Source: Pseudarthrobacter sp. NIBRBAC000502772
Lineage (GTDB): Bacteria > Actinomycetota > Actinomycetes > Actinomycetales > Micrococcaceae
Length of the DNA stretch: 64,000 nucleotides
Direction: 5' to 3'
Assembly: GCF_006517235.1 (NCBI RefSeq)
Contig: NZ_CP041188.1
Location: forward strand, 4,464,001 to 4,528,000
Shown: positions 920-2,651 of the stretch, piece by piece
Layout of the letters: the number at the start of each line of letters is the position of its first letter
Position numbering within the stretch: position 1 is the stretch's first letter
Notes under the pieces: generated by a model
The model's database searches: none
Told to the model about the DNA's origin: nothing
The model's input: only the letters and a program-made list of their open reading frames with translations
Translations under genes and position numbers: made by a program

Positions 920-980
920 GTGTTTCCCGGCTGTCAAGCGCCCGGGCTAGGAACGGTCAAGTGCCCGGACAAAGAAATAG

Positions 981-1009
981 CCCCGGGGCATGATGACCAT
1001 GCCCCGGGG
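981..1009 (-). terminator. Terminator hairpin downstream of the exported peptide gene
   Basis: CCCCGGGGCATG and CATGCCCCGGGG form a near-perfect 12-bp stem with a short loop. Read on the minus strand it is followed by a T-rich stretch (CTATTTCTTTG). It lies 22 nt beyond the stop codon of the repeat-peptide gene, so that gene is probably a monocistronic unit. Confidence 0.8.
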
Positions 1010-1031
1010 CCGCACCTCCTGAGAGGATTCC

Positions 1032-1244
1032 TTACATCGGGTCGGGCCAGTTGCCAACGTACGTGGTGTAGGTCGTGCCGGTCTTGTCCTTGACGGGCTT
1101 GGACATGGGATCGGGCCAGTTGCCAACGGCTACGGATACGCCGGTGGTGTCGGCGATGGAACCTGCCGACAGGACAGCCGGGGCCGCCGCAGAAAATGCC
1201 AGGGCAGCAGCGAGAACGCCAGCGGCCGCAATCTTCTTCAACAT
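1032..1244 (-). CDS. Small exported peptide with two exact VGNWPDPM repeats
   Basis: A 70-residue protein of no family I recognise. It opens with MLKK and a hydrophobic Ala/Leu core ending near AVLSA, a Sec-type signal peptide. The mature part of about 43 residues holds two identical octapeptides, VGNWPDPM, one in the middle (DNA 1104-1127) and one as the exact C-terminus (DNA 1035-1058), joined by a Lys/Thr-rich linker. The ATG is preceded by GAGG at proper distance, and a strong terminator follows. It is transcribed divergently from the XRE-TPR regulator 132 bp away. The layout (signal, spacer, repeated short peptide at the C-terminus) is that of a secreted signalling-peptide precursor; this role is inference. 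Alternatives are a small envelope protein or a bacteriocin-like peptide. Confidence 0.85.
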   Translation of the reverse strand: MLKKIAAAGVLAAALAFSAAAPAVLSAGSIADTTGVSVAVGNWPDPMSKPVKDKTGTTYTTYVGNWPDPM

Positions 1245-1302
1245 ATAAGTTCCTCAATACGAGTCGGATTCGTTACAAAGTCAGCACTGTCCTTGTTGAC
1301 AT

Positions 1303-1316
1303 ACATTGTAAAATGT
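1303..1316. promoter_or_regulatory. Dyad ACATT-GTAA-AATGT in the divergent promoter
   Basis: Perfect 5-bp inverted arms around a 4-bp spacer, placed between the repeat-peptide gene and the XRE-TPR regulator gene. It covers the predicted -10 of the peptide promoter and abuts a TTGACA (1296-1301) that could be the -35 of the regulator promoter. It is the obvious candidate operator for the regulator; binding is inferred. Confidence 0.5.
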
Positions 1317-1335
1317 TTTCCACAGGGACTGTCAA
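1305..1335 (-). promoter_or_regulatory. Predicted promoter of the repeat-peptide gene
   Basis: On the minus strand TTGACA (1335-1330) and TACAAT (1310-1305) are separated by 19 bp. Both hexamers are good sigma-70-type matches; the spacer is slightly long. The start site would be near 1298, leaving a leader of about 54 nt. Confidence 0.5.
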
Positions 1336-1376
1336 GCATTGAGTACAAAGACTGTCCAGAATCAGGAGGAAATCCC

Positions 1377-2651
1377 GTGGGCAACGGATTCGGGGAGAAG
1401 CTCCGTGCGGAGCGTCTCGAACGTGGGCTGACACAGGCTGAACTGGGCAAGGACCTGTATTCCCCCAGTTACATCTCCCTCCTCGAAACCGGCCGCCGTG
1501 AGCCGACGGCCGAAGTGATCGAGGAGCTCGCCCGCAGGCTGGAGCTGGCGCCCAAGGCGCTGGAAGCCTGGAGCCAGCCCATCACCGTCAGCGACGCCGA
1601 GTACGTCCTGGCTGGCCTCTACGCGCGCCAGGCCTGGGACCTCCGGGACTACCCGCTGGCGGCCACGCACGCAGCCAACGCAGCCCAGATAGCCCTGGAG
1701 GGCAAGAACACCAGCGCGTGGTGGAACATGACCTACATGCAGGCCGAATGCCTGATCAAACAGGGCAACTGGCAGGAATGCCAAAAGATCATGCAGCACC
1801 TCCTGGAGCACCCGATGGCCACCGAGTCTGCCGGCCTTGCCGTCCGTGCCCGCCAGATGCTCGCCGCCATCTGCCAGGGACAGGGCCAGCTGAGCACTGC
1901 CGTGGAGCATGCGCTGGCGGCCGTCCAGCTCTGCGGCCAGCTGCCCAACGGATCCACCCTGATCATCGGCGCCTACCGCGCGCTGATTGGGGCACTGGCG
2001 GAGAGCGGCCGCCTCGACGAGGCCTGGAAATACTGCCAGGCCATGAATGACCAGATGGACGAGCACTCCATGTCCCAGCTCGCCGGTGAGGTTGCCTGGG
2101 TGATCGGCAACGTGGCCTTTATGCGGCACGACTACCCCGAGGGCATCAAGTACCACGAGCGCGCCGCCCGGATGCTGTCGCCCGCTAACGACATCGATCT
2201 CTGGGCCCGTTTCAACAAGGCCTCGGCCGCCGTCCGGCTGTCCTCCGGAATCGTCGAACCGGAAACACTTTCCAGCATCGAGCGCGCCGAACTGGCGCTG
2301 TCCATTGTGGGGGGCAACAAGAGCGACCAGCTGGAAGTTGCGTTCATCCGCGCCCGCTGGCTCTATCTCACCGGCGACATCGTGGCTGCCATCAACAAGC
2401 TCCGGGAGATCCACGCGGAATCCGACGCGCTGGCCAAGCACACGGCAGGGGAAGTTTCACTCCTGCTGGGCAAGTCGCTGAAAGCCGCCGGCGAGTCCGA
2501 CGAAGCCCTGGTCTACCTCGAGGAAGCGCAGAAGGCCTTCAGCGCCGCGGGAGCCTCGGACCGCGTCCAGCAGGCACTCGATGCAGTCCTTGAGATCAGG
2601 CTGGCCCAGCAGCGGGCCGCAGCAGCAGCGAAAGACGTCAAAGCAAGCTAG
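1377..2651 (+). CDS. XRE-family regulator with C-terminal TPR-like repeats
   Basis: The start is the GTG at 1377, placed 8 nt after a clean AGGAGG; a longer reading frame upstream has no ribosome site. The product has 424 residues. Residues 5-60 form a Cro/C1-type helix-turn-helix (LRAERLERGLTQAELG, then SPSYISLLETGRREPT). The remaining 350 residues are alpha-helical with spaced A/L/W helix pairs typical of TPRs (for example ARQAWDLRDYPLAATHA and EALVYLEEAQKAF). This HTH-plus-TPR design is that of the RRNPP group (Rgg, PlcR, NprR), whose TPR groove binds short peptides. The divergent neighbour encodes a small exported repeat peptide. That it is a peptide-responsive regulator is inference; many actinobacterial XRE-TPR proteins have no known ligand. 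Confidence 0.9.
   Translation: MGNGFGEKLRAERLERGLTQAELGKDLYSPSYISLLETGRREPTAEVIEELARRLELAPKALEAWSQPITVSDAEYVLAGLYARQAWDLRDYPLAATHAANAAQIALEGKNTSAWWNMTYMQAECLIKQGNWQECQKIMQHLLEHPMATESAGLAVRARQMLAAICQGQGQLSTAVEHALAAVQLCGQLPNGSTLIIGAYRALIGALAESGRLDEAWKYCQAMNDQMDEHSMSQLAGEVAWVIGNVAFMRHDYPEGIKYHERAARMLSPANDIDLWARFNKASAAVRLSSGIVEPETLSSIERAELALSIVGGNKSDQLEVAFIRARWLYLTGDIVAAINKLREIHAESDALAKHTAGEVSLLLGKSLKAAGESDEALVYLEEAQKAFSAAGASDRVQQALDAVLEIRLAQQRAAAAAKDVKAS

Follow-up and report, generated by a model that had tools for sequence, protein, structure and literature searches.

Do two divergent genes in an actinobacterial chromosome encode a peptide pheromone and its receptor? The question is raised by a 64,000-nt stretch of the genome of Pseudarthrobacter sp. 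NIBRBAC000502772 (contig NZ_CP041188.1, positions 4,464,001 to 4,528,000; hereafter, the window). Peptide pheromones read by cytoplasmic tetratricopeptide repeat (TPR) receptors are known from Bacillota. A preliminary description of the window had proposed a system of this kind, on the grounds that a 70-aa precursor with an export-type N-terminus and two exact copies of the octapeptide VGNWPDPM, one of them C-terminal, is divergent from a gene for a 424-aa protein combining a helix-turn-helix (HTH) domain with TPRs. We confirmed this arrangement, and the comparison of orthologous loci described below supports the pheromone interpretation, with three residues of the putative receptor covarying perfectly with the first residue of the octapeptide. 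Judged from sequence comparison, the two genes appear to form a so far undescribed signalling system of the Arthrobacter group.

To place the pair in its phylogenetic context, relatives of the receptor were collected from two sources. A family-wide search (E 0.001) identified them in 167 of 295 genomes, the weakest matches (about 1e-4) possibly being matches to the HTH only; a scan of named Arthrobacter, Pseudarthrobacter and Paenarthrobacter genomes yielded 80 receptor loci. In all of the 110 orthologous loci (L001-L110, which take in the window's own; the two pooled sets share some genomes), the receptor gene is adjoined by a small open reading frame (ORF) with the motif NWPDP, so that the pairing cannot be ascribed to chance. 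With five later loci added, the precursor lies upstream of the receptor gene on the opposite strand in 115 of 115 cases, and in every one its product begins with M[LFI]K[KN][ILMY] and continues with hydrophobic residues, from which export by the Sec route is inferred. Scanning 61 genomes of the genus with a motif pattern gave a match in 58, and a backward control pattern matched none. The three genomes without the GNWPDP pattern have kept the receptor together with a changed precursor. These three changed precursors carry TGIWPDPM (twice), SGNWPNPM (twice) and SGNWPYPV (once), and in the TGIWPDPM and SGNWPNPM precursors the same change is present in both copies. The module is kept throughout a common soil genus; in related genera it occurs with changed codes.

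The octapeptide itself appears to be the object of selection, as the preliminary description had argued from the exactness of the repeat. Among the seven small ORFs of the window with a basic-hydrophobic N-terminus (ATG ORFs of 40-140 aa), only the precursor contains an internal exact repeat of at least 6 aa; shuffling its 42 C-terminal residues 200,000 times produced a repeat of even 5 aa in 282 instances. The 106 distinct precursors drawn from 123 collected carry one copy (4 precursors), two (52), three (25), four (22), five (2) or six (1), hence at least two copies in 102. All copies are identical in 96 of these 102, and a copy forms the end of the protein in 97 of the 106. This first count fixed positions 2 and 4-7 and allowed N or I at position 3, so zeros at those positions arose by construction. 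In the repeat comparison (110 distinct precursors of 128 loci, 321 copy pairs), Trp was the sole anchor. Amino acid differences between copies at positions 1 to 8 then occurred in 6, 0, 1, 0, 7, 0, 7 and 12% of the pairs, part of this residual difference coming from a decayed copy, GNWADQL, present in eight precursors. The four positions preceding the octapeptide differ in 62-87% of the pairs and the four following it in 53-68% of 151 pairs; the spacers between copies also change from one precursor to another. Synonymous differences inside the octapeptide are frequent (155 of 321 pairs at position 5, for example). Since these are common and amino acid differences are rare, the unit under selection is the octapeptide and not a DNA repeat: 0-12% of the pairs differ inside it against 53-87% at the flanking positions.

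Variation at peptide position 1 offered a way to look for residues of the receptor that match the ligand. Of 106 distinct orthologous receptor-precursor pairs, 64 have I at this position and 35 have V, the remainder having T (5) or S (2). The 99 pairs with V or I were compared at the 105 receptor columns that were variable enough. Residues 127, 132 and 167, and no others, explain the V/I label completely and without exception. The next-best column (165) scored 0.81, and none of residues 1-126 exceeded 0.28. Among 1,770 pairs of well-varying receptor columns, values of 0.95 or more were found only for the three combinations of these residues with one another. Of the 506 informative nucleotide sites, only three scored 1.00, one in each of codons 127, 132 and 167. 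The best of 210 synonymous-only sites scored 0.47, those of codons 128-130 ranged between 0.03 and 0.09, and those of codons 118-176 were at most 0.24; residues 1-28 of the precursor track the peptide type at 0.44 at most. As nearby synonymous sites are unlinked to the V/I label, linkage by proximity does not explain the covariation.

The changes have occurred repeatedly. Mapped onto a tree of the neighboring purC gene (102 taxa), the residue at position 1 switches 17 times, and residues 132, 167 and 127 change on 13, 11 and 13 of these branches, respectively. Other receptor columns share up to 12 of them, which indicates that parts of the cassette also recombine. The V/I label changes 16 times on a tree of receptor codons 1-115, 15 times with codons 190-412 and nine times with the whole gene. 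Of seven related strains with T or S at position 1, six have H129 and R168; with A at position 8, V195 and I202 are each found in five of seven. In the structure model, which shows the TPR part of the regulator as a superhelix, residues 127-132 are situated where one helix turns into the next and residues 165-168 where a following helix ends, positions that would fit a single pocket at the edge of the TPR groove. A size rule considered for residue 132 was only partly borne out. Perfect covariation of this sort is the signature of direct receptor-ligand matching; it strongly suggests that residues 127, 132 and 167 contact peptide position 1. As a case in nature of a ligand and its receptor switching specificity, the pattern is unusually clear.

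The octapeptide is found outside the pair as well. A further copy of VGNWPDPM is encoded in the window genome at a distance of 2.7 Mb in contig coordinates, in a 28-residue ORF devoid of a signal sequence, MSINTAVINRSHVISTVGNWPDPMRNLG, which is preceded by CAGGAGAAA and lies 89 nt downstream of a gene for a secreted protein. We examined 26 extra motif sites in the genus (25 and the window genome's own), which are a sample of those present. Eight (L216, L222, L225, L227, L230, L232, L235 and L237) fell in unrelated frames and were dropped. In the remaining 18, from 15 genomes, the octapeptide is mostly in small ORFs lacking a signal sequence (L220, whose frame contains masked bases and has no evident start, was kept), either on a different contig or separated from the main locus by 120 kb or more. 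These satellite ORFs and the precursor have only the octapeptide in common. Position 1 is the same as in the main precursor of the same genome in 16 of 18 sites, the exceptions being L226, which differs, and L233, which is mixed. Of 15 wider regions, 11 have the satellite ORF placed after a gene for a secreted-type protein that is rich in Pro and Ala, 278-455 residues long and, in all 11, ends in an invariant DPGSSPD. Because the genomes are related, these counts do not represent independent events. The protein has no Pfam match; its DPGSSPD end may have a role of its own as a signal or in sorting. Two single satellite ORFs contain two kinds of peptide with a Trp-Pro (W-P) core, GWWPH with VGNWPDPL in L226 and IGWWPDLM with IGNWPDPM in L221, and perhaps feed two receptors.

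The region between the divergent genes contains a candidate target for the regulator. The inner part CATTGTAAAATG of a palindrome is invariant in 23 of 23 aligned intergenic regions, inside the near-invariant element TTGACATACATTGTAAA. This is the sole site of the genome with two mismatches or fewer to TTGACANNMATTGTAAA; for the overlapping palindrome ACATTGTAAAATGT, there is one further genomic site with two mismatches, beside a gene read as ArsR-like. The core ATTGTAAA is located in the 250 nt preceding the receptor gene in 104 of the 110 orthologous loci and in 11 of the 40 distant ones. All 11 distant receptors with the core have an HTH and a W-P precursor; one receptor with both of these features (L146) is without it. 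The core is absent upstream of the 11 DPGSSPD genes. We infer that the receptor acts at the conserved element between the two genes.

Altogether, these data make it very probable that the gene pair is a pheromone-receptor module working like RRNPP systems. In the mechanism that we envisage, the precursor would be exported by the Sec route and proteases would cut VGNWPDPM out of it, release at these boundaries being suggested by the sharpness with which selection stops at eight residues. The octapeptide would be taken up by an oligopeptide permease, for which the genome has 12 candidate binding proteins, and would bind inside the cell to the TPR groove of the HTH-TPR protein, with its first residue near residues 127, 132 and 167. 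The notion that these three residues set the pherotype is strongly supported by their covariation with the peptide. Binding would alter the action of the HTH on the intergenic element, resulting in autoregulation. We tentatively favor a repression lifted by the peptide because the element lies in the shared promoter region. The 28-residue leaderless ORF would provide a second source of peptide.

Such leaderless ORFs could also be taken to mean that the system does not report on other cells at all and that the receptor gauges the cell's own peptide supply, as set by export, proteolysis, recycling or the state of translation, with the leaderless ORFs feeding it from inside. The conserved secreted-protein gene just upstream in 11 of 15 wide regions would fit this idea, as would three distant receptors (L137, L138 and L142) that have a leaderless candidate only. 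However, the main precursor has an export-type N-terminus in each of the 115 loci, and the repeated V/I/T changes resemble a pherotype diversification for which a private sensor would have no need; we regard this explanation as unlikely.

Alternatively, the small protein could have an extracellular structural or antimicrobial role, the HTH-TPR protein then being a local regulator that senses something else. Structural and bacteriocin-like roles do occur among small exported proteins with repeats, and a divergently placed regulator is nothing unusual. Moreover, some of the best 120 of 319 precursor relatives carry the source name "low-complexity protein", and an ABC-transporter ATPase gene is nearby, ending at 724. 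None of this would account for the perfect match between residues 127, 132 and 167 and position 1 amid unlinked synonymous sites, nor for conservation confined to eight residues per copy while spacers and copy number (1-6) change, nor for distant leaderless ORFs sharing just the octapeptide with the precursor, and such a role seems very improbable. Still less credible is that receptor and peptide types go together without any functional match, by hitchhiking in a cassette that is linked and recombines. The two genes do stand side by side, and the many columns that change on the same branches of the purC tree as the peptide attest to cassette exchange; yet the synonymous sites between and around the three codons, like precursor residues 1-28, fail to track the peptide type, and the distant satellite ORFs match it too.

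More distant relatives of the receptor were also examined. Searches at E 1e-20 matched 26 of 347 genomes at the order level, of which the window's own family contributed 20; at the phylum level, four of 346 matched, two from the window's genus. Therefore, the receptor family centers on Micrococcaceae. We inspected the surroundings of 69 selected receptor rows, which represent 66 distinct loci and include 8 rows of orthologues, for small ORFs; L111-L150 were hand-picked from the family-wide matches to spread over genera, so the proportion with a precursor should not be taken as a random estimate. The filter recognized an exported-type precursor in 42 rows; three more, the receptors named above, have a leaderless candidate, and the remaining 24 have neither. 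Many relatives at 26-65% identity have other exported precursors, most with a W-P core, and the codes vary by clade: VGIWPNS (L112), FVGNWPDAV (L113), PGIWPD (L116), VGDWPH in many copies (L130), VGNWPDRF (L162) and, in another family of the order, VGGSWPT (L171, receptor 29% identical to the nearest query). The VGDWPH precursor, used as a protein query, found one relative.

Twelve distinct loci have no recognizable HTH, in the sense that the match starts at query residue 41-77 and the protein is about 330-370 aa long; the simple pattern used for HTH labels in the chosen set misses some HTH domains. These TPR proteins (L140, L141, L143, L144, L145, L147, L150, L164, L169, L170, L179 and L277) are all accompanied by a divergent exported-type precursor, which ends in a W-P peptide in 11 of 12 (IGWWPN, IDDWPH and VNNWPG, for example, resembling Phr C-terminal hexapeptides). 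By these features they would constitute a Rap-Phr-like branch in Micrococcaceae. We tentatively propose, with doubt slightly outweighing confidence, a pheromone family of Actinomycetota independently diversified on the W-P core, with PlcR-like and Rap-like receptors, exchangeable V, I and T pherotypes, and a pheromone made in two ways. If so, these would be the exported tandem precursor and the leaderless ORFs tied to the conserved DPGSSPD protein, and the receptor would combine the neighbors' signal with the cell's own expression state. That the pheromone times a density-dependent change such as the Arthrobacter rod-coccus cycle is speculation.

How closely does the pair resemble RRNPP systems? 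RRNPPA receptors possess a TPR domain of 5-9 repeats (PMC9765709). The window receptor has Pfam TPR matches and an all-helical repeat model, and it carries the N-terminal HTH (PF13560) of the transcription-factor branches. Likewise, an adjacent small gene for an exported propeptide, export being judged from the N-terminus, is present in 110 of 110 loci. The predicted signal falls within the usual 5-8 residues and C-terminal location, given the eight-residue selection boundary and the 97 of 106 precursors ending in a copy; the 12 SBP_bac_5 candidates show only that permease binding proteins exist. Several observations limit the comparison. A PDB sequence search finds PlcR and ComR weakly and by the HTH (PlcR E 0.078, residues 5-57), in structure searches Rap and NprR come after eukaryotic TPR proteins, and 24 of the 66 distinct loci in the chosen set lack an adjacent precursor by the filter. 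Pfam and NCBIfam scans gave no peptide-pheromone family. Because TPR structure matches many proteins, the fold alone neither proves nor excludes kinship. The RRNPP-type build noted in the preliminary description (HTH, TPR, adjacent precursor) stands; membership in the family is not established, as the fold match is unspecific and the sole PlcR sequence match lies in the HTH.

Among known systems, Rgg-SHP receptor and precursor genes can be divergent, as in the window pair, and peptide-receptor coevolution has reportedly been seen in ComRS (PMC8605241); the peptides of these streptococcal systems (Rgg-SHP, ComR-ComS) differ from the window octapeptide. Phr precursors end in their signal, but Rap receptors of Bacillus and its phages lack the HTH present here and have Spo0F- or ComA-like targets, none being known for the window system. 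Arbitrium AimR-AimP combines an HTH-TPR receptor with a short imported peptide and is phage-borne; the build is alike, and the window locus is situated between a tRNA-Pro gene and purC. Leaderless communication peptides (RopB-SIP) lack a signal sequence like the satellite ORFs, which differ in being longer, far from the receptor and often placed after a secreted-protein gene; the former may measure no more than 24 base pairs and are found beside their receptor (PMC10518010). PlcR-PapR and NprR-NprX, HTH-TPR transcription factors from another phylum (Bacillus), have the precursor immediately downstream of the receptor (PMC9765709), in contrast to the divergent window precursor with its several identical copies and W-P core. 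Rgg and ComR have TPR-like folds with degenerate repeats (PMC9765709).

Oligopeptide signals are placed in Bacillota, the signals of Actinomycetota being typically small molecules (PMC10075063); RRNPPA proteins are treated as a Bacillota or Firmicutes family, Actinobacteria going unmentioned in the available portions (PMC12700828, PMC9765709). The accessible text of PMC9765709, PMC10075063, PMC4748050, PMC12700828 and PMC13220807 does not mention a TPR pheromone receptor in Actinomycetota, and we found no description of such an actinobacterial system, or of the motif NWPDP, among the results listed by open-access literature searches. With peptide, receptor, predicted specificity residues and pherotype pairs defined, linear-peptide signalling in high-GC Gram-positives becomes directly testable. 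The features of the locus are compiled in the table.

Table. Features of the precursor-receptor locus (window coordinates, except for the DPGSSPD gene)
Feature	Position	Strand	Remarks
Precursor gene P0001	1032..1244	-	70 aa, MLKKIAAAGVLAAALAFSAAAPAVLSAGSIADTTGVSVAVGNWPDPMSKPVKDKTGTTYTTYVGNWPDPM; ATG start, stop 1032-1034
Signal-peptide-like part, residues 1-27	1164..1244	-	MLKK, hydrophobic core, Ala-rich end; sequence and hydrophobicity filter
Octapeptide copy 1, VGNWPDPM, residues 40-47	1104..1127	-	sequence
Octapeptide copy 2, VGNWPDPM, residues 63-70	1035..1058	-	sequence; C-terminus of the protein
Shine-Dalgarno-like TGAGGA of precursor	1251..1256	-	read from sequence
Terminator-like hairpin 3' of precursor	979..1011	-	15 pairs; pattern scan
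Conserved element TTGACATACATTGTAAA	1296..1312	+	between genes; proposed operator/promoter
Palindrome ACATTGTAAAATGT	1303..1316	+	overlaps the conserved element
Shine-Dalgarno-like AGGAGGA of receptor	1364..1370	+	read from sequence
Receptor/regulator gene P0002	1377..2651	+	424 aa, GTG start, divergent from precursor
HTH domain, residues 5-64	1389..1568	+	PF13560, E 1.4e-11; low confidence in structure model
TPR superhelix, residues 71-412	1587..2612	+	Pfam TPR matches; model; structure matches
Residue 127	1755..1757	+	Ile in window (V-type), Met in I-type; proposed specificity residue for peptide position 1
Residue 132	1770..1772	+	Trp in window (V-type), Leu in I-type; proposed specificity residue
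Residue 167	1875..1877	+	Gln in window (V-type), His in I-type; proposed specificity residue
DPGSSPD protein gene	L256:7290-8237	-	directly upstream of leaderless octapeptide ORF; 10 relatives in L257-L264, L269, L271

The receptor model is all-helical (mean pLDDT 81.3), with helical pairs from residue 71 to the end and pLDDT values of 73-97 across the TPR part, by ten-residue blocks. Searched against its own genome, a single contig of 4.8 Mb, the receptor matches nothing but itself at E 0.001. A protein search with the precursor returned 319 related proteins at E<=1, the best 120 of which were examined; one of these (P0087), 77% identical to the window's precursor, is encoded by a 352-base contig labelled Streptococcus pneumoniae, most likely a contamination. 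In another family of the order, three receptors at 26% identity (L174, L175 and L176) have an exported-type ORF upstream ending in YGPGPACCTT, FGPGPMCCAG or FGPGPVCCAG, possibly a different peptide code. One HTH-TPR clade (L119, L121, L124, L125, L128, L129, L133, L135 and L167), which adjoins the precursor-bearing L118 in the tree, has no adjacent precursor by the filter and no ATTGTAAA core in the eight members tested; these are possible orphan receptors. On the precursor side of the window pair, the ABC-transporter ATPase gene (PF00005) ends 308 nt from the precursor's end, with the tRNA-Pro gene (806-882) in between; beyond the receptor lie the genes for SAICAR synthetase (purC) and phosphoribosylglycinamide synthetase (purD).
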